In this document: piece by piece, positions 19,408 to 31,286 of the stretch
Position numbering within the stretch: position 1 is the first letter of the stretch
Layout: every line of letters starts with the position of its first letter
Assembly: GCA_008729055.1 (NCBI GenBank)
Contig: SDUX01000004.1
Coordinates: forward strand, 3,164,172-3,228,171
Length of the DNA: 64,000 nucleotides
Reading direction: 5' to 3'
Source of the DNA: Pyropia haitanensis
Lineage: Eukaryota > Rhodophyta > Bangiophyceae > Bangiales > Bangiaceae
Notes under the pieces: model-generated
The model's input: the letters and a program-made list of their open reading frames with translations, nothing else
Database searches by the model: none
What the model was told of the DNA's origin: nothing
Translations under genes and position numbers: made by a program

Positions 19408-21708
19408 CTCGGCTCACCGCGTCGGCGAGGGGGGCTGCTACCGAGGAGGAGGCGGAGGGAAGGCGGGGGTAGGGGACGGCACCAGGCTGGTCACCGCGCC
19501 AGTGTGCGCACGCGTGTCCAGCAGCACCGACGATGGACGGCAACAGTGGAGAGGCACCGCCTCGTTCAGCGCCAGCAGCGGCTGCACACGCACCACCACT
19601 AGCCGCATCAGGCGGCCTGGGGATCCCGCTCTTAGTCCCACCCCGCCGACGACGCGACTGGGAACGCGGTGGGCGGGCCGGTCCCTCGTTCCCCCGGCCG
19701 CCACTTTAGACGACCGCCGTTCCAGCCGGTGGGGGCAGCGCGAGCGGCCTTGGCGGTCGTACCCGCGGAGCCGACGCCTGCTGCCGCCACGCACCTCTGC
19801 AAGCACAACCAACTGGCCGTCTCCACCCCCGCTTCCCCCACTCCCCTTCCCCAGAGCCACGCCAACAGACAGACATCAGCGCCGCCCCCTGCGTCCTCCG
19901 CCCCCAGCGCTCGCCGAGCCCGCCGCACCGCCCACCGCCGCCGCCGCCGCCGCCAGTACCGTTACCGCCGCGCCATCCGCCCAGGCACAGGGACCTCATG
20001 GGGACTCGCCGCCACAACGGCCGCGCCACGCTGGCCGCGCCCGCAACCGCCGCCGGCGCTCCGCCCGCGCATTCCCCCCCCCCCTCGCCGACGGCCGCCG
20101 CCCAAACGCAAGCCCCCGCCCCCCGCCGAGGGGTGGAAACGCGACCATCGTGCCGCCGCGGAACGCGCACCGGCAAACAGCAGCGGCGGCGCGCCCCAGG
20201 GGGCGGGATAAAACGGCAGCGGCAGGCAGCACGGACCGCCGGCAGGGCGCGGGGGGGAAGGCGGCGGCGAGTGCAAGCCGGCCGTGTGCCGTCCGCCACA
20301 CCGCCGTGGCTGCTGGTGGTGCCAGCGTGCCCGCGTCGGCCTCCCGTCAGCAGCGCGGCGGGGGGAGGGGGGGAAGGAGGGGGGGGGCGCGGGAGCGCGC
20401 CCCCACGTGGCCGCGCCATCGTCGTGCGCCATCGTCGGGCGCCACCGCCGGCCACCGTTGTCACGACGCAACCGCAGCCGCCATCATGGCCGGACCGCGA
20501 TGGTCACCAGCGGTACCGCCTCGCCGTCGCGGAGCAAGTTGCTCATGAGGTTGCCCTGCGGGGTGCGCTGCGGCGGTAGAGTTGCCGTGGACGACGACGG
20601 CACCCGGACGGCGGCCGCCGGGACGGCGCGACGCGGTCCGGCGGCGCCCGTTGTGACCGCGACGCCCGCTGAAGTTCCAGTCCACCGCGCAGGTCGGAAG
20701 AATTTGGCAGCGGCGCTTCGCGACAGCGAATGCGCGAGGCCGAGAGACAAGATTTCCTTGATGAGGCGCCGTGCGAAGAAACCCAGATCATCTGTGCAAG
20801 CACTCCTCTTTTTTTTTTTGAAAAAGCAAGGGTTGGCAAAAAGGCCTTGCGGTGCAGCGCCATGGCGCACTCTAGGGGCGCGCGCCTTGTAATGGAGGCC
20901 AACCGAGAAGAAGTGAGCCCAGCCGTGGGTAGAGCCGCGGGTCTTCCACCTTGGTGGCCGAGGCGTCGCCCGCCGCCGTCGCGGCCACGTGTCTCAGCTC
21001 GTCGCCCTCGTTGCCGCTGCCCACTATTTGGCAAGCGGCGGTGACGGTCACCCGCGCTGCTCGGCGGGATAGCCGTCGAGGCAGAACCCCCGCGTCGGTA
21101 GTGTTCAACCCCCGTTGATCTTGGTCGAAGAGGATTGGCGGCGGGTGTGGGTGGACAGGCGGCTGGCAATCGCGGGGCGCGCGGCGGTGGAGGGCGGCCG
21201 GTTGGCAGCGATAGAGGGAGGGGGGGAGCGCAACGGCGGCGTGCTCCCAGCGCTGGCCGCTGTGCTTGATAGAGCTGATGTCTCGGCGTGCTGCCGCGGC
21301 CGCGGCGGCTGCCGTCGCGCGCGTGCATCCTCAAGAAAGCGGCCGACGGATGAGGATCCAAGAGTGGAACAATTGTAGCATTGACTGAGAAAAGTGTCTG
21401 TACAATTCTTCTTGCACAAAGTGGGTGCATCCTGATCAGCGAGCACGAGCTGGCGTGGCGTCGACCCCGCGCTTACCGCCAAAACCGCGCTGCTCGCCTC
21501 CCCGTCGGCCGTCTGCTTGTGTCTGCCCGCCCCCAGCCGTCGTCTGTCGCAACCCGCCCCCCTCAGCGGTTTCTGCGTCCACCCCTCGTCCCCCCCCCGC
21601 CTTGTTCCTCTTCCCCCCCCCGCCTTGTGGCAGAAGGACTGTTGTTTGTCAGAGCCCCCTGCCCCCGTGCGTCTGTCGGCCCCGCGTGGGCAGGCACGTC
21701 GGGGTGTC
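19408..21708. other. intergenic between LPMO-like gene and RecQ4
   Basis: A divergent promoter region of 2.3 kb. 19600-20480 is GC-rich with compositional frames on both strands. 20700-20870 is AT-richer with a T10 run followed by AAAAAGC. 21360-21430 is another AT-rich patch close to the helicase. No gene was recognised. Pyrimidine-rich DNA (21580-21640) leads into the helicase ATG. Confidence 0.5.
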
Positions 21709-21950
21709 ATGGACGGTCGCTCCTCTGGCGCCTCGAGCGGCAGCCGCCCCGCCTCCTCGGACAGCGACGCGGGTGCCGACGGCAGTGCGCCCGCGGCGGC
21801 ACCCCGGCTGGCCATCCCCCCGGGTGGGGCGTTGCGCCGGCGACTGACGGCGCCGGCTGGCCTGGACGCGTGGGCGTCGGTGCGGCGCGTACGCAAGCGC
21901 CCGCGCCCAGACAAGGACGGGGCGGCCGACGACGGCGGCGGCGGCGGTGG

Positions 21951-21981
<31 letters not shown>

Positions 21982-22236
21982 AAGGACGGCGGCAAGGACG
22001 GCGACGCTGCTCCTGTGGAATTCCCGCTCACCTCTGAGGATGACGAGGAGGAGAGCGCGTCTGAGCTGGACGGCGACGGCGACGGCGACGGCGGCGGTGG
22101 CGCCGTGGCGGCGGAGGAGCTACCCCCGGGCGCGGAGCAGCTCGTCTTTACGGGCCGCAAGAGGGCGCCCAAGCGCAAGTCCCGCCTCGCCCGCCCGCTG
22201 GCGGCTATGCCCGGCTACCGCCGCCGGTCGGGGCGT

Positions 22237-22278
<42 letters not shown>

Positions 22279-22581
22279 CGCTTCCGTGGGGGCCGCGCCG
22301 GCGGCGGCGGCGGCGGCTGCCGCGGCGCCATTGGCGGCGTGTCCGCGGTCGGCGGCGGCCACCTGGACCGCCGCCTGTCCGCGTCGGCCTACTGGGATGG
22401 TGACGGCGGGGGTGACGGCGCCGGGGGGGGGGGGGGGGGGGGGGGGGACGCGCTCGCCGCCATTGCGGGGCGGGCAGACGTGGAGGACGAGGCGGGCGTC
22501 TTTGATGACGTGGAGGTTGCCGAGGGGGGGGTGGACGCCGGCGGTGGCGGCGGCGGCGGCGGCGGCGGCCGCGGCGGCGGC

Positions 22582-22628
<47 letters not shown>

Positions 22629-23314
22629 CGGCGCGCGGCGCGCCGCACCCGCCGGGCGCGTGGCGGGTGGCCGCAAGAGCCGCCGGGCGGCGGCACCGCC
22701 GTCGGCCCCGTTTGATGTGGCCGCGCCGGTGCGCGCGGCGGCGGCGGCGGGCGGGCGCTCCCCCCCCCCCCCCAGTCCGCCCTCGGGCGGTGCCCCCCCC
22801 CCCCCCCCCTCAGCCGGCGGGCCGCCCGTCGGCGCCACCACCGCCGCCGCGAGTGCCCCCCCCCCCGGCGCGCCCACCCCCGCGCTCACCGACGCGGCGG
22901 CCCTCGCCGCCAAGCTCACCGCCGTCACCGGCCACGCCGCCTTCCGCCCCGGCCAGGCGGCGGCGGTGACGGCGGTGCTGCGGCGGCAGTCGGTGCTCGC
23001 GGTGCTCCCCACCGGCGGCGGCAAGAGCGTCCTCTACCAGCTCCCCGCCGCGCTGCTGCGCGGCCTGACGGTCGTCATCTCGCCGCTGACGGCGCTGCTG
23101 CTCGAGCAGCTGGCGCGGCTGCCCGCGTGCCTCACCGGCGAGTGCTTCCGGGCGGGCCAGCCCGCCGCGACGGTGGCGCGCATCGAGGGGCGGCTGCTGG
23201 CGGGGGAGGTGGACGTGCTGTTTGTGTCGCCCGAGCGGCTGCTCAGCGACCGGTTCGCCACGTTTATGCGCACGCACGCGGTCGGCGGCGGCACCACGGC
23301 CGACGGCGGCGGCA

Positions 23315-23373
<59 letters not shown>

Positions 23374-25422
23374 AGCGCCAACGTCCCCGACGCCGCCGAC
23401 GGGGACGGCGCGGGCGGCGCCCCCCCCCCCCGGCTGCCCGTCTCGCTCGTCGTCCTCGACGAGGCGCACTGCCTCTCCGAGTGGTCCCACAACTTTCGTC
23501 CCGCCTACCTGCACCTGGCCGACGCGCTGCACGGCCCGCCGGGGCGGCGGCTGTTCCCCCCCCGGGGGTCCCCCCACGCGCCGGCGGTGCTCGCGCTGAC
23601 CGCCACCGCCACCGCCGCGACGGCGGCGGCCATCACCGCCGCCCTCCGCACGCCGACGGTCGTGTCGGGCAGCGTTGCGCGCGGCAACCTGCGGCTGTCG
23701 ATTGTCCACGCCGCCGCCGCCGACGCCAAGCTGCCCCTCCTCCTCCGCCTGCTGCGGGCGCCCTTCTTCCGCGCCGCCCGCGCGCACGCGACGGCGGCGG
23801 TGCTGGTGTACGTGCCGCGGCGCAAGGCGGCCGAGCTGCTCGCCGCCCACCTGGCCGCGGAGCTGACCGACACGCCCATCGGCCGCCGCGTCGCCGTCTA
23901 CCACGCGGGCCTCGGCGCCGCCGCCCGCGCGCGGGCGCAGGCGGACTTTGCGTCGGGCGCGGCGGCGGTGCTCGTCGCGACCGTCGCGTTTGGGCTGGGC
24001 GTCGACAAGGGCAACGTCCGCGGCGTCGTGCACTACGCGCCGCCGCCGTCTGTCGAGGGCTACGCGCAGGAGGTGGGCCGCGCGGGGCGCGACGGCGCGC
24101 CGTCGCAGTGCGTCGCGCTGGTCGCCGACGACGACTGGCCGGTCGCGTTTAGCCGCGCGCACGCCGACGCGGTCGACCTGGGGCCGCTCAGGGGGCTCTT
24201 CCGCCGGCTGGTGGCGGCCGCGGCGGTCGCGGCGGGCGCGGGCGGTGGCGACCGCGGCAGGGGCGGCCGGGGGCGGCCGCCTGCCAGAGCCGCGGCGGCC
24301 ACGTCGGCGGCGGCCACGTCGGCGGCGGCCACGTCGGCGTCAGCGTCGGCGTCGGCGGCGGCGGCGGCGGCGGCGGATGCGGCGGCGGATACGCCGCCCG
24401 CGTCGGGGCTGGTCGTCGTGCCCCTGTCAGTCGCAGACGTGGAGCGGGAGCTGGACCTGCGGGCAGAGGTGGTAGAGACCGCCATCACGCTGCTGCAGAC
24501 CGCCCACCACCGGCCGGCAGCGGGGCAGGCGGCGGTTGCGCCGCCTCCCGCGACGCTGCTGCGCCTGCAGCTGCGGCCGCGGTCGCCGGCGCTGGCCAAG
24601 GTGCGCTTCCTCGGCGCCGCCCCCGCCACCTACTTTGGCCGGTACCCGCTGCTGGAGGCGGCGCTGGGCGGCGTCAAGCCCGCCAATGGCGTCTACACGT
24701 TCTCCGTGTATGGCGTCCGCGGCGGGGGGGAGGGCGGCGGCGGCGGCGGCGTTGCGCCCGCCGCGGACGTGGTGGGCATGCTGGACGACCTCCGCGCCGC
24801 CGGCTCGATCGCGTACGACACGAGCACGGACAGCATTGTGGTGGGCGTGGCGGTGGGCGACGCGCTCGCCGACGCGGCCGCCCGGGCGGTGGCGGTGGAC
24901 GCGTCGGCCCGCTTTGTGCACGCCCGGCTGGGGGCGGTGCTGGACACAAAGCTCCGCAACGTCCGCGCCATCCGCTCCCTCTGCCGCGACGCGGTGGCCA
25001 TGACGCGGCGCGCCGCCGCGGGGGGGGCGGCCGACCGCGCGGCCGCCGCGGACGCCCAGTCCGCCGCCATCCACGCGCGCCTCCACACGCACTTTACCGA
25101 GGCGGACGTGGCGCGGCTGCCCGCCGCGGGCGCCCCGCCGCCGCCGCCCGAGGTGGACGCGGACTTGGCCGCCTACGAGGCGCCGCTGACGCCATCGCAG
25201 CGGGCGGCGGTGGAGGCGGACGTGCGGTCGTTGGTGTGCCAGTCGGCGGGCATGACGCCGCCTTCGTCGGCACGGCAGGCGGCGCGGCTGCTGCATGGTA
25301 TCCACTCCCCAGCCTTCCCGGCGCAGGTGTGGTACTCGCACCGCGCGTGGCGGCGGCACGTGCGGCTGCCGTTTGAGGCGGTTCGGGAGGTGGCGGCGCA
25401 GGTGCTTCGGGGACTGGTCTGA
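21709..25422 (+). CDS. RECQ4: RecQ4-type DNA helicase
   Basis: Intronless, 1237 aa. Family knowledge: RecQ helicases unwind DNA 3'-5', and the RecQ4/RECQL4 group acts in replication initiation and genome stability. Motifs run in order. Motif 0 is HAAFRPGQ, Walker A is LPTGGGKS (Lys439), then ISPLTALLLEQ and VSPERLL. Motif II is LDEAHCLSEWSHNFRP (Asp584). The WSHNFRP form is typical of RecQ4, whereas other RecQs have WGHDFRP. ALTATAT, VAVYHAGL, VATVAFGLGVDKGNVR and QEVGRAGRDG follow. The first about 400 residues are disordered Gly/Asp/Arg-rich sequence, and no Sld2-like motif was recognised in them. Odd features are a Gly-run inserted between motifs Ib and II and Ala/Ser repeats near 24295-24380. 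C-terminal residues after 24600 form a conserved-looking domain without a clear RQC zinc motif. The ATG at 21709 gives an acidic/Ser-rich start; an ATG at 21517 is less likely. Confidence 0.9.
23308..23374. repeat. (GGC)n poly-glycine insertion inside the helicase core
   Basis: A GGC trinucleotide run encodes roughly 20 Gly between the VSPERLL strand and motif II. Longer GGC runs lie in the N-terminal region (about 22234-22270 and 22540-22634). All stay in frame, so the repeats behave as codon-length slippage products. Confidence 0.85.
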
Positions 25423-25673
25423 CCGTGGCGCGCTGAGAGCGGGCTGGTACAACTGCTAAACAACACGAAGGGCATGCGTTGGGTCGTCGAGGCGGGCGGG
25501 CCAGTCAAGCTGCCACCGCCTCGTCCATGGTGAGTGAGTACCAGCGATGAGGATCCGGTGGAAGTGGTGTGGGCAAGAAAATAAATCTTTCGAGATACAA
25601 GCAAAGAACCTAGAAACACATACACAGACAAGTGAAGGGGAGGGCGGTCAAAAGAGAACCGTCCCCACCGCAC

Positions 25674-27224
25674 CTAGTACTTGTACCCCGCCTCAAAGGT
25701 GCCCACCGCGTCAGCAGTCGGCTCAGAGCCCGGCACGTACTCGCCCTTGGACGCCTTGGAGTTGGCGCGCGCCCGGGCCATCAGGGCAGCCTGGGCGGCA
25801 TCAACGTTCTCCTTCTTGCCCGCCCACGCCTTCAGCGTCGACTGCTGCAGGGCACGGCCGTAGCTGAACGTCAGCGCCCAAGGGCCCTTGCGCTTAATCT
25901 TGTTCATGGCGTTCAGGTTCACCGACGCCTCCTCCTCCGACATGCCACCCGACAGGAACGTCACACCGGGCACGGAAGCGGGAACGCGGCGCTCCAGCGT
26001 CCGGACGGTGTAGGCGCCCACCTCCTCGGGGGAGGTCGTGCCCTTCCAGTCCGCGCCAGGGACCGTCATGTTGGGCTTGAGCAGCGAGCCCTCCAGGTAC
26101 ACGCCGCACAGGTCGCAGGCCTTGTAGACAGCCGCAAGCACCTTCTCCTGCACAGCCGCCGTCGTGTCAATGTCATGGTCCCCGTCCATGAGGATCTCGG
26201 GCTCAATGATGGGCACCAGGCCAGCGTCCTGGACTGTCTTGGCGTACCGGGCAAGGCCCCAGGCGTTCTCCTGGATGCTCAGGTTGGACGGCGTGTTGCC
26301 CGAAATCTGCAGCACCGCGCGCCACTTGGCAAAGCGGGCACCCTGCTTGTAGTAGGCCGCCGCGCGCTCCGCAAGGCCGTCAAGGCCAGTGCACCACGTC
26401 TCAAACGACTCGGCACCACCCAGCGGGGCCAGACCCATGTCCACCTTGATGCCAGGGATGACACCAATGGCCTTCAGGCAGTCCACAAACGGCTTGCCCT
26501 CGGCAGAGCTCTGGTACAGGGTCTCCTCGTACAGAATGGCCCCCGAGATAAACTCGCCCAGGCCCTCACAGTTGAACAGCAGGCCGCGGTACGCCTGGCG
26601 GTTCTCCTCCGTGTTCTCCACCCCAATGGATGCCAGGCGCTTGCCAATGGTCTTGGTGCTCTCGTCCACAGCCAGGATGCCCTTGCCCGGCGCGGCAATG
26701 GCGTTGGCAGTGGCCACGAGCTCAGCGGCAAACTTGCTCGCCTCACCCACGACACCAGCGTCGTTAGTGCTCATGCGCACCGGCGCAGACGCGGCGGGCA
26801 GACGAGCAGCGACATGACCGCGGCTGACAAAAGCGGTCTCACCAACCCTGCAAGGCGCGAAAAGAGCAACACGTGAACACACAACGGCAAGACAAACAAT
26901 CCTGTCAGAACTCTGGGAACCAGGTTTCTAGCAGGAGAGAAATGCCACGGAACACGACACCCATGCGGGCCAAATATTCAGGCAATGGGCCAAGAGACCA
27001 TGGACAGATGCAGAACAACCAGGCCAACCGCGCATTGAGGCAAGCCAGGCAGGTAGGAGCCAGCATGTCCAATGCATGTGCCCCTGCCCTGAGATCCAGC
27101 TCGAAACAGGGGAATGCAACCTTCAGAGAAAGAGCAAAGAAGAAAACACAACATACTGGCACGTGGCGCGGGCGGTGGTCGCAGCAGAGCTGAGGGCAAC
27201 AGACGCGGCAGCAACGAAAGCCAT
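25674..27224 (-). CDS. FBA: class I fructose-1,6-bisphosphate aldolase, plastid-targeted
   Basis: Two exons, complement 27157-27224 and 25674-26847; donor GTATGT, acceptor CAG, phase 2; 413 aa. The enzyme interconverts fructose-1,6-bisphosphate with DHAP and glyceraldehyde-3-phosphate, in the Calvin cycle or plastid glycolysis. The class I Schiff-base lysine is in EGSLLKPNM (Lys280). [38 protein letters not shown] and [12 protein letters not shown] are all present. The C-terminus ends in Tyr, as in classical class I aldolases. Residues 1-55 are a transit peptide ([11 protein letters not shown] then [14 protein letters not shown]) almost the same as that of the divergently transcribed UROD gene. 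The MAF start and second Phe fit primary-plastid targeting in red algae (family knowledge). The start is fixed by the exon-1 match to UROD. It is transcribed away from UROD from a 789-bp spacer. Confidence 0.95.
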
Positions 27225-27300
27225 GACGCCAAAAATGAAGGTTGAGGGAAGATGGACGGGTGACGGTGGCAGTCGGCGAGGCGACGGGCGTACGTCGTCG

Positions 27301-27317
27301 TCGTCGGCGTCACCGTC
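27301..27317 (-). repeat. inverted leader block, FBA side
   Basis: The minus strand reads GACGGTGACGCCGACGA, matching 27912-27928 on the plus strand at 16 of 17 positions. It lies 76 bases before the FBA ATG. Confidence 0.7.
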
Positions 27318-27911
27318 GATCGTCGGGAGCTGGTCTGCTGGGAGGAGGGGGGCGGCTTGAGTTCCTTCGGTGCGGTGACAGTCCGAGTCCAGGAGGGTGC
27401 GTGCACCGTCGGATCTATCTAACACAAATGAACAGGGCAGGGGGTTCCGCCGCGGAAGACCCGCGCCTGCCAGACTGGCGTGGGGCGATCTCCAGGCCGT
27501 CTTCGGCCGCGTCGCCCATCCAGATTGGGCGGGCGTCGCGTAGACCACACGTCGCAGAGCCGATCCAAGCCAGTCGTGGCAAGTTGTGGCTGTCCGGCTC
27601 CCTCCGCCAAATGGCCTCGACCAGCCGGCATGCCAGTCGTCCATTGGTGGACACCGGCGGGAGGGTTGGTCTCGAGCACGAATGGATCGAAGCGATGTGG
27701 TGACCGACCGATCCAACCGAGCGCGCCTACTCCAATTGGTGCCTCGAGACTCCGCATTTTTTTTAAGTTCGTGGTTCAATTGATCCTCACTTGGCAAGCA
27801 TGAGGATCTCTCAATCTGAGCTCGTCACGGCACCCGTCGAGCACGGGCCTGTGCGCCGCTGCCGCGGTGCCCCCCCTCTCTGTTGGCGTCCGGTACGCGC
27901 TACTCGTCGGA

Positions 27912-27928
27912 GACGGTGACGTCGACGA
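27912..27928 (+). repeat. inverted leader block, UROD side
   Basis: GACGGTGACGTCGACGA, the counterpart of 27301-27317. It ends 85 bases before the UROD ATG. Weaker similarity continues from here to the start codon (CGCTCATCCATC versus CCGTCCATCTTC). Confidence 0.7.
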
Positions 27929-28013
27929 GAACGACAGCGCGCGCTCGTTGCCCGACCGGCTGCGACTATCGCTCATCCATCCTGCTTCTTCCTGTGTCGT
28001 TCTTTGGTTCAAG

Positions 28014-29517
28014 ATGGCGTTTGTTGCCGCCGCGCCTGTGGCGCTCGGGTCGACCGCGACCACTGCCCGCGCCACTCGTCAGTATGTTCTGCGCTGCCTT
28101 CATGATTCTCATACGTCTGGACGTGTGGGTAGCCTCTTATCTTTGATCAGGATCCGCACACGGGTGTTCTGGGCAGTGTTCATTGCTCTGCTTCTGTCTC
28201 TTGTGACGCCTGGTGCACGGCGCTCGGGGCCAGAGCTCTACAAGTCCTGCGTGGCGCCACGGTGTGGCACGCGCTTTTGCTGACCGCGTGGCGTTTGGTT
28301 TTGTTCCCTGATGTTTGAGTTGCCTCGTCATATTTCCACACAGGATTGGTGTGAGCGCGTTTGTTGCCCGTGGCCAAGTCGCCGCGCGCTTGCCTGCCAC
28401 CACCACGTCTGTGCACATGAGCGTGAACGATGCTGGTGTCAAGGCTGCTTCGTCCCCGACTTCGACAGCAGACGCGACGGCGGCGTCGACGGAGCCCTTG
28501 CTGGTGCGTGCTGCGCGCGGTGAGACCACCGAGCGGCCACCGGTTTGGATGATGCGTCAGGCGGGGCGCTACATGAAGGTGTATCAGGAGTTGGCTAAGA
28601 AGCATCCCTCTTTTCGGGAGCGCTCGGAGGTGTCGGAGCTGTCGACGGAGATTTCGCTGCAGCCGTGGACGGCCTTCCGCCCGGATGGGGTCATTCTATT
28701 TTCGGACATCCTGACCCCGCTACCAGGCATGGGCGTTGGGTTTGACATCCCGGACAAGGGGCCCGTCATCAGCCCGCCACTGCGGTCGGAGGAGGCTATC
28801 CGGGCGGTGCACACGCTTGACCCCGACGCGGCATGCCCGTTTGTGGGGCAGACTCTCCGGGACCTGCGTAAGGAGGTGGGTGGGGAGGCCGCGGTGCTTG
28901 GCTTTGTGGGCGCCCCCTACACGCTGGCCACGTACTGCATTGAGGGAGGCTCCTCCAAGTCGTACAGCGCGATCAAGAAGATGGCCTACACGGAGCCCGC
29001 GCTGCTGCACTCGCTGCTGACCAAGTTTGCGGACAACATTGCCAAGTACTGCTGCTACCAGATTGAGTGCGGCGCGCAGGCAGTGCAGATGTTTGACAGC
29101 TGGGCAGGGCAGCTGTCGCCGGTCGACTATGACCTCTTTGCGGGGCCTTACCAGCGGTCAGTGGTGGAGCAGGTCAAGAAGGTCCACCCAGACGTGCCGT
29201 TTATCATTTACATCTCGCAGGGTGGCGTGCTGCTGGAGAAGATGGCGGCGACGGGCGTGGACGTGGTCAGCGTGGACTGGACGGTGGACATGGCGGACGC
29301 GCGGGCGCGCCTCGGTGCCGATATGGGCGTGCAAGGTAACTTGGACCCAGCCGTGCTGCTCGGCAGCAAGGAGCTCATCACTGAGCGCGTTGTCGACGTG
29401 ATTCGCAAGGCCGGGCCGACGGGACACGTCATGAACCTGGGACATGGCGTGCTGCCCATCACACCAGAAGAGAACGTCGCGCACTACTTCAAGACGGCGC
29501 AGGAGTTCCGCTGGTGA
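28014..29517 (+). CDS. UROD: uroporphyrinogen III decarboxylase, plastid-targeted
   Basis: Two exons, 28014-28081 and 28344-29517; donor GTATGT, acceptor CAG, phase 2; 413 aa. It converts uroporphyrinogen III to coproporphyrinogen III by four decarboxylations, on the path to heme, chlorophyll and phycobilins. Diagnostic motifs are [69 protein letters not shown] and [15 protein letters not shown]. Residues 1-55 form a transit peptide ([11 protein letters not shown], then [14 protein letters not shown]) aligned without gaps to that of FBA. The real enzyme starts near residue 75 ([11 protein letters not shown]). Exon 1 encodes only 22 residues plus two bases of the split Gln codon. Regulation through the shared spacer is likely but unproven. 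Confidence 0.96.
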
Positions 29518-29950
29518 TGCGGGTCTCCCCGGTTCTGCCTCTTTTTTTGTTTCTGCAATGTTTTTTGTGCGCTTTTTGGTGAGCGATCGTGGGTTTTAGT
29601 AGGGTTGGGGCCGTGGGCGCCGTGGGCGCACGCACTCGAGGGGTGCGGCGCGTAAAACTTGTCCCTTGGACACGCCAAGTGCCCGAACATTGAGCAAACA
29701 TATTTGGAAATATCTCATTCAGAATGACTTCTTGCAAGTGTCAGCTCGATTGTTTCACGAATCATGCAGACACTTGTCTGGCGTTCCCGTCACTTGCCAG
29801 CCTCCGTACGACTCGTCCTCCCTGCAGGTCAACTAATCGCTCGCGCACACGCGGGCGTCACGGGGAACGACGTTCTCACCTGGCCTGGAGGCTCCCCTCT
29901 GTACCCTTTTCCCCTCTCTGGGCTTGACTCTTCCTTGTTCCAGGGGCGCC
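29518..29950. other. intergenic between UROD and p24
   Basis: T-rich 3' region of UROD (29535-29580), then an AT-richer patch (29690-29770) that may hold the p24 promoter. Pyrimidine-rich sequence (29880-29940) precedes the p24 ATG. No gene seen. Confidence 0.55.
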
Positions 29951-31286
29951 ATGGGCCTCCCTCTGACGGTTCGAGTGGCGACGTTCGCGGCCCTGGCCGC
30001 GGCGACTGTCCTGCTCGGGGCGGCACCGCCTGCAGCGGGCCTACACTTTTACCTGCTACCGGGCCAGCGGCGATGCTTCACAGATGACCTGCCTCTCAAT
30101 ACACTGGTGAGTCCATGCCAACTTTTTTGTTGGGCAGGCTTTAGCGCCGCTGCTCCTGCGTGGACATGAGGTGGGAGGACCGGCTGCCAAGGGGTTGTCC
30201 TGCTTGTTTCCTTTTTGCACTTGGGGTCTGTCAGAAGCTGCGTTGTGTTTCCTGTGTAGTAGAGTCGTCCGTCGCGATATAAAGGAGAGGCTGACCATGT
30301 GTCTTTTGCTCTTGTGCCACCTGTTTGTCATCTTGTACTGTCGTATGGTTGTTGCCGACCATGCAGATTAAAGGGGAGGCGAGCATTTCCAACGGCAAGG
30401 GCAACATGGAGCTGGATGTGTGGGTACGTTTATGGTGCTGTCTGGTGGCTGTCTGGAGGGTTGACTGATGTCGTGAGTGACGACCAATCCACTGGCGTGT
30501 CGGTGGGCATTGGCATCCTCATCACACCTGGACGCTAGACTTCTGCCCTGCCACCTGCCACGCATTGTTGCCGGACATGTTGACACGCATCTGCGGTGGG
30601 CTTGTGCTCGTGGAGTGGTGCTGACGTTTGCTCGCACCGTCTTGTTGGCCTCGCTCGTTGCGTTGCCTGTGGCACGCTTCACCAACGTATCTTTGTTGTT
30701 GCCGCGACCCTTCCTGTCCCACCTCTTTCGGCTCAATCCTTGTCCTCTTCTCTCCTGCCAGGTTATCACGAAGAACGGACGCGTCCTCTTTCACCGCCGC
30801 AAGACCCAGCACGGTAAGTTCTCCTTTACGACCCCCGAGCACCCTGACGTGGACCACTCGCGCCCGCGCAACGATGAAGAGGATGACGGTGAGATGTATG
30901 GCGTGGAAGAGGACAACTACCAGGTCTGCATTGAGCACCAGGACCACCCCGACGCCGTTCACGAAGCGGGCACCAAGCGGCTGGTGTCGTTCAAGCTGGA
31001 CCACACCGCGGCCTATGATCCGGCGGGTGGTCGTACCGTCGCGGCCAAGGCCAAGGACGTGGACGGGGTGGTGCGGGCGCTGGAGGACATGCACCACACG
31101 CTGCTGTCGATGAAAAACCAGCTGGACACGCTCCATTACCGGGAAAAGCGGCTGGCCAAGGCGAACGAGGGCACCAACGAGCGCGTTGCGTGGTACTCGA
31201 GCGTGGGCTTTGTGGTGCTGCTGCTGACAGGGGCGTACCAAAGCTTCTACATGAAGAGGTACCTGACGTCGAAGAAGATATTGTGA
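29951..31286 (+). CDS. p24 family cargo receptor (EMP24/GP25L, delta-like)
   Basis: Three exons, 29951-30106, 30367-30423 and 30762-31286; donors GTGAGT and GTACGT, acceptors CAG, all phase 0; 245 aa. A signal peptide ends near residue 30. The GOLD domain has FYLLPGQRRCFTDD and the paired Cys (42 and 127, YQVCIEH). A coiled-coil region (MHHTLLSMKNQLDTLHYREKR) is followed by one TM segment (VGFVVLLLTGAYQ) and a cytosolic tail MKRYLTSKKIL. Family knowledge: p24 proteins cycle between ER and Golgi, sorting cargo into COPII/COPI vesicles. The tail carries aromatic and dilysine signals of the delta class. The unusual feature is a lumenal acidic insert around residues 108-123 (DEEDDGEMYGVEED). The 57-nt middle exon was chosen because it restores an uninterrupted GOLD strand. 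Confidence 0.93.

Follow-up and report, generated by a model that had tools for sequence, protein, structure and literature searches.

What happened at the start of a red algal gene whose first residues largely match those of the unrelated gene beside it? The origins of the organelle targeting signals of nuclear genes are mostly deduced from traces without a clear surviving donor, and two head-to-head genes of Pyropia haitanensis raise this question directly. They lie in a stretch of 64,000 nucleotides (nt) of contig SDUX01000004.1 (positions 3,164,172 to 3,228,171 of the forward strand), which we call the window. FBA1, on the minus strand, and UROD1, on the plus strand, are divergent nuclear genes with start codons 789 nt apart; the first encodes a class I fructose-bisphosphate aldolase (FBA; NCBIfam FrucBisAld_I, 448 bits, cutoff 250), and the second encodes a uroporphyrinogen decarboxylase (UROD; TIGR01464 hemE, 397.5 bits, cutoff 302.95). 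A close Pyropia yezoensis aldolase is 96% identical to FBA1, and the residues at the FBA1 exon junction are read through identically in the P. yezoensis protein P0121, which supports the FBA1 gene model. We propose that the 5' end of UROD1 is probably a copy of that of a plastid aldolase gene, preserved as an inverted repeat that faces FBA1 and produced by a local duplication.

FBA1 and UROD1 have a homologous predicted targeting region on unrelated mature proteins, with a match at the DNA level and a common exon-intron structure. Realignment confirmed what a preliminary description of this locus had reported from inspection: residues 1 to 55 align without gaps with 40 of 55 identical, exon 1 is 68 nt long in both genes (53 of 68 bases identical), and phase-2 introns beginning with GTATGT split codon 23 after CA in both, both introns ending in CAG ahead of an exonic G. 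The FBA1 intron (309 nt) runs from GTATGT, preceded by CA, to CCTTGCAG, followed by GGTTGG, and the UROD1 intron (262 nt) from GTATGT, again preceded by CA, to CCACACAG, followed by GATTGG. Over the whole module 123 of 165 nt are identical, distributed over the three codon positions as 43, 50 and 30 of 55. With the seven-residue start MAFVAAA removed, the protein alignment scores 155, against a maximum of 54 in 2,000 shuffles. Positions 25500 to 30000 contain four inverted-repeat pairs, the longest two of which are the exon pieces of the two genes (27147-27224 with 28014-28091, 78 nt at 79% identity; 26744-26850 with 28341-28447, 107 nt at 72% identity), the other two being 26 to 28 nt long. 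Residue identity then falls from 6 of 10 (positions 51 to 60) to 1 of 10 (61 to 70) and to 0 of 10 in each block over 71 to 100, so that the similarity stops near residue 60, short of the enzyme domains, as had been described.

The similarity also reaches upstream of the start codons. The FBA1 leader from -93 to -5 aligns with the UROD1 leader from -102 to -7, nearly colinear with the exon match, at a score of 67 that none of 1,000 dinucleotide shuffles reach (mean 26.8, maximum 49). FBA2, a second aldolase gene on another contig (C10:3965798 onward), has the same module architecture; in the same test its leader scores 60 with that of FBA1 (reached by 1 of 1,000 shuffles) and 41 with that of UROD1 (26 of 1,000). 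The intron bodies show no similarity, their scores being reached by 306 of 500 shuffles for FBA1 and UROD1, 150 of 500 for FBA1 and FBA2, and 459 of 500 for FBA2 and UROD1. Because the paralogues FBA1 and FBA2 also lack intron similarity, we do not count the missing intron-body match against a common origin, and the apparent homology of the introns is confined to position, phase and splice ends. The hexamer GTATGT occurs 10 times over both strands, and it is not fixed for the module intron, since the FBA2 donor is GTACGT.

Both copies of the module are under selection for protein coding. In exon 1 (codons 2 to 22), 15 base differences cause only 4 amino-acid differences, where random substitution of an equal number of bases gives a mean of 9.1 and only 2 of 5,000 such sets give as few; in the module part of exon 2, 27 base differences cause 11 residue changes against an expected 16.3 (35 of 5,000 sets as low). 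The changes between FBA1 and UROD1 are thus mostly silent, and both copies look translated.

The full module appeared rarely in the searches made. In a six-frame search of the 52.9-Mb genome, which scores best candidates only, the FBA1 module gave seven matches, six of them exons of FBA1, UROD1 and FBA2 and one on contig C9 (E 2.26), while the UROD1 module gave six, all within the same three genes; the module part of UROD1 exon 2 as query gave three, again in FBA1, UROD1 and FBA2. These module searches brought up neither UROD2, a second hemE gene (C4:2072800-2075200) that is 49% identical to UROD1, nor three further aldolase loci; the UROD2 open frame has no ATG before the domain, which makes a separate upstream first exon likely. 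In the protein database, searched among proteins of 0.55 to 1.75 times 413 residues with exact five-residue words in common, the module alone drew 268 candidates, 2 of them at E <= 10: the P. yezoensis aldolase P0121 and the UROD P0001. DNA searches with exon 1, or with leader plus exon 1, found no new carrier, but they overlooked known relatives (two missed FBA1 and one recovered nothing except its own query), which makes them poor evidence of absence. The preliminary description had asked whether many unrelated plastid proteins share this peptide. In the searches made they do not, and in this genome the full module appears only in FBA1, FBA2 and UROD1.

We suggest the following course of events. 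Some or all Bangiales would descend from an alga in which the 5' end of an aldolase gene was duplicated locally and inverted. The copied piece would comprise about 90 to 100 nt of the leader, exon 1 with the intron that follows it, and ~97 nt at the start of exon 2. This piece would have been joined in frame to UROD, displacing the prior N-terminus, and the present UROD1 protein is predicted to use a transit peptide of aldolase type for plastid entry. The adjacent FBA1 would be the source, an aldolase the donor family, and the peptide would import both enzymes; conversion between the inverted arms is possible. The earlier proposal that an inverted duplication passed on signal, first intron and leader together is supported, with qualifications: exons and leader bear it out, the introns agree in position, phase and splice ends only, FBA2 offers an alternative donor by coding sequence, and the shared promoter placed between the genes is putative. 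A bolder version, which we regard as speculative and on balance unlikely, holds that one inverted duplication moved leader, regulatory sequence, intron and transit peptide at once, so that a tetrapyrrole enzyme came to be expressed and imported in the manner of a Calvin-cycle enzyme, and that the mirror pair has since been kept co-regulated and possibly homogenised by conversion.

Several observations weigh against our proposal. Coding sites group UROD1 with FBA1 at 13 positions and with FBA2 at 11, and UROD1 exon 1 is closer to that of FBA2 (57/68) than to that of FBA1 (53/68). The locus was read in one species, and UROD1 exon 1 is a predicted exon, the relative P0001 covering the exon 2 part only. 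A lumazine-synthase-like gene on contig C9 also carries a portion of what exon 2 contributes to the peptide, and naming an aldolase as donor depends for the most part on two similar outgroup sequences whose matches are short, out of 79 other FBA N-termini scored.

The first of these points bear on which aldolase was copied. Instead of FBA1, FBA2 or a third aldolase copy, since lost, could have been the source: an entire aldolase gene would have landed beside UROD in inverted orientation, its enzyme part would have been deleted and UROD fused to the leftover 5' end, which would make FBA1 a sister copy that did not itself donate the module. Only source and route set this alternative apart from our proposal, and it draws on the module of FBA2, on the exon 1 comparison and on the near-even split of coding sites. 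The UROD1 leader, however, fits that of FBA1 far better than that of FBA2, and a local event explains the mirror-orientation adjacency at once, so we think the FBA2 or third-copy route rather improbable. Adjacency and leader similarity together favour FBA1 as the source to a moderate degree, and it is the coding sequence that leaves FBA2 as an alternative.

As to timing, P0001 is 95% identical to UROD1 over the compared part and has the module's exon 2 part. Since it carries this part, the capture would predate the split of its alga from P. haitanensis. Its exon 2 module segment is nearer to FBA1 (24/32) than is that of UROD1 (21/32), which is what divergence of the pair from a single sequence predicts. 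Dating by silent sites was tried and given up, the synonymous divergence (dS) being too uneven to order events (module dS about 0.91 between FBA1 and UROD1). A side observation concerns the two aldolases themselves: FBA1 (25674-27224) and FBA2 are identical at 998 of 1,077 nt in their mature parts, with a dS of 0.34 there and 0.75 in the module, and their intron bodies are unrelated, a pattern that gene conversion or codon constraint could explain. Among the 80 of 475 relatives listed from genome contigs, all of them bacterial or archaeal, there was no second red-algal locus; close records may be excluded from that set.

Could the module instead be a common red-algal transit-peptide cassette, carried by neighbouring genes through coincidence? 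Thirteen genomic loci encode MAFVAAA, against 0 for the reversed control pattern, which makes these first seven residues a convention common to several genes; plastid transit peptides of P. haitanensis may have MAFVAAA as a conserved beginning. Several of these frames resemble plastid proteins, presumably one ribosomal protein S15 and one ATP phosphoribosyltransferase. Past residue 7, however, the other 10 of the 13 loci score 18 to 37 against either module, which is the level of shuffled sequence (mean 26.5, standard deviation 5.1, maximum 54), against 155 for FBA1 and UROD1, whereas the first exons of FBA1, FBA2 and UROD1 still score 50 to 76 when read on into the unspliced intron. The convention thus covers the start of the peptide, and neither the genome nor the database searches added a further full carrier.

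The C9 match also speaks for a cassette. A lumazine-synthase-like frame (TIGR00114, 63.8 bits, short of the cutoff of 84.6), whose N-terminus lies at C9:6627210-6627332, has GxxAFxxxGxVAARLPA there in common with the exon 2 half of the module. None of 5,000 shuffles of this N-terminus reach its score against either module, although the match is the best leftover of a whole-genome search, its shuffle test being made on a selected sequence, and its genome-wide E is 2.26. The hit is retained as a caveat. Residues 1 to 22 are unmatched to the modules (scores reached by 3,136 and 1,042 of 5,000 shuffles), the gene is intronless at this place, DNA identity is near background at 42-44/84 against 58/84 for FBA1 and UROD1, and a search with the C9 stretch as query gave no link back to FBA or UROD. 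Chance could account for the resemblance, as could convergence towards a pattern typical of transit peptides or a more ancient relationship, and some of the peptide may thus be of older or convergent origin; we accordingly rated the cassette slightly higher and the local copy slightly lower than we otherwise would. Even so, we consider a general cassette with a coincidental neighbour highly improbable.

The direction of copying was approached through the N-terminal regions of listed relatives, scored against both modules without MAFV, with a repeat run of 500 shuffles in which all rows were ranked. The 120 UROD and 120 FBA rows yielded 50 and 80 usable N-termini (>= 25 residues), 70 and 40 being dropped, P0049 among them; the relatives are not all red algae and include bacterial URODs and stramenopile proteins. 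Among the 50 URODs a strong module match occurs in P0001 only (z-score about 20). Of the other 49, P0062 scores best against the FBA module, at z 2.3, and P0025 against the UROD module, at z 2.8, and none of these 49 has the module or its RATCNVGExxFV motif. Among the aldolases, P0121 matches, followed by P0155 (Purpureofilum apyrenoidigerum; z 6.0 and 6.9 in two scoring runs) and P0162 (6.0 and 7.8), with P0147 at 4.7 and 5.0. Several other FBAs reach z 2-3.3 against the FBA module, among them brown-algal ones in which composition may be the cause, and P0138, also an FBA, reaches z 3.5 against the UROD module. A retest of five of the 80 FBA N-termini with 5,000 shuffles gave the following numbers of shuffles reaching the score: against the FBA module 2 for P0162, 0 for P0155, 7 for P0147, 50 for P0148 and 52 for P0138, and against the UROD module 340, 219, 58, 4,096 and 31, respectively. 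FBA1 and the outgroup aldolases have a core RATC[NQ]VGExxFV in common. The outgroup check proposed in the preliminary description thus finds the core motif in the aldolases P0155 and P0162, and since the 49 other URODs are without the module, an aldolase is the likely donor to UROD, a call of moderate strength given how short the outgroup matches are. The reverse transfer, from UROD to an ancestral aldolase, draws on the symmetry of the repeat alone and is very hard to credit when FBA2, on another contig, also has the module and the motif occurs in two outgroup aldolases and in no UROD of the 50 besides P0001.

Red-algal URODs from outside this group, such as Gracilaria domingensis P0005 and Compsopogon P0032, begin with extensions that are unrelated to the module and would be transit peptides of their own. 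This suggests that the module on UROD1 replaced an older N-terminus and was not a first gain of a signal; of the earlier view that UROD1 acquired a transit peptide, the presence of the module on UROD1 stands, and the event is better described as a replacement. As a separate observation, the EukProt transcript P0049, listed as complete, encodes a UROD that is 91% identical to UROD1 over the matched part; it starts past the place of the module and loses frame later, and if real it may mark a relative without the module.

The features of the locus are collected in Table 1. Nearby, at window positions 21517-25422 on the plus strand, lies a long Gly- and Ala-rich open frame with low-complexity runs, which by its motifs we take to be RecQ-type helicase-like.

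Table 1. Features of the FBA1-UROD1 locus, in window coordinates.
Feature	Position	Strand	Evidence
FBA1 exon 2 (end of module, then class I aldolase domain; stop codon included)	25674..26847	-	Open frame joined to exon 1; FrucBisAld_I
FBA1 exon 2, shared-module part, residues 23-55	26751..26847	-	70/97 nt identical to UROD1; inverted-repeat arm 26744-26850
FBA1 intron, 309 nt, phase 2, GTATGT...TTGCAG	26848..27156	-	Splice ends; body unlike the UROD1 and FBA2 introns
FBA1 exon 1, 68 nt, start of predicted transit peptide	27157..27224	-	53/68 identical to UROD1 exon 1; inverted-repeat arm
FBA1 5' leader segment, homologous to UROD1 leader	27229..27317	-	Smith-Waterman score 67, shuffle maximum 49 (1,000 dinucleotide shuffles)
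Intergenic interval of 789 nt separating the divergent start codons	27225..28013		Coordinates
UROD1 5' leader segment, homologous to FBA1 leader	27912..28007	+	Nearly colinear with the exon 1 match
UROD1 exon 1, 68 nt, start of putative captured transit peptide	28014..28081	+	15 nt changes, only 4 amino-acid changes
UROD1 intron, 262 nt, phase 2, GTATGT...CACAG	28082..28343	+	Splice ends, phase
UROD1 exon 2, shared-module part, residues 23-55	28344..28440	+	Alignment, inverted repeat; same segment in the UROD relative P0001
UROD1 exon 2 (end of module, linker, hemE domain; stop codon included)	28344..29517	+	TIGR01464 hemE

The copying of targeting signals between nuclear genes is already known. 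PMC2631504, which cites Kadowaki 1996 as its reference 11, describes presequences of rice rps11-1, Arabidopsis sdh3 and carrot rps10 that were seemingly copied from atp2, hsp70 and hsp22. Like these, UROD1 is a nuclear gene for an organelle protein with a signal apparently copied from an unrelated nuclear gene; those cases are mitochondrial genes moved to the nucleus, whereas UROD1 would be a nuclear gene for a plastid enzyme that swapped its signal, with the module carrier as its head-to-head neighbour and with leader and intron position copied as well. In plants, the targeting sequence of cytochrome c1 came from GAPDH by exon shuffling (Long 1996, as described in PMC5610209). UROD1 would likewise have gained its targeting N-terminus by an exon-level transfer, but the cytochrome c1 source as described there is a cytosolic enzyme domain, and the UROD1 module is a transit-peptide region copied as such. 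For the diatom nuclear petF gene, PMC3022921 gives LI818 as a possible origin of the transit peptide; as with UROD1, the peptide has a first exon to itself and a potential donor gene can be named. That donor is there a candidate only, while the homology of FBA1 and UROD1 is statistically clear at the DNA level, leader included. What is new here is the mirror-image neighbour carrying the source module, the inclusion of the leader and the apparent replacement on an enzyme that has an N-terminal extension in other red algae. Among the matches listed in the open-licence literature, none was by its title a published account of the FBA1-UROD1 pair.

UROD1 serves haem and chlorophyll synthesis and FBA1 is a sugar enzyme, and the apparent change of signal between them is unusually legible: a carrier of the source module lies beside the recipient, the copied segment has readable borders, and outgroups give grounds for arguing which way it moved. 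From further Bangiales genomes one could learn when the event took place and whether control of expression came along with targeting. Judged by this pair, a functioning transit peptide may be exchanged for another and need not have the same history as the enzyme it serves.

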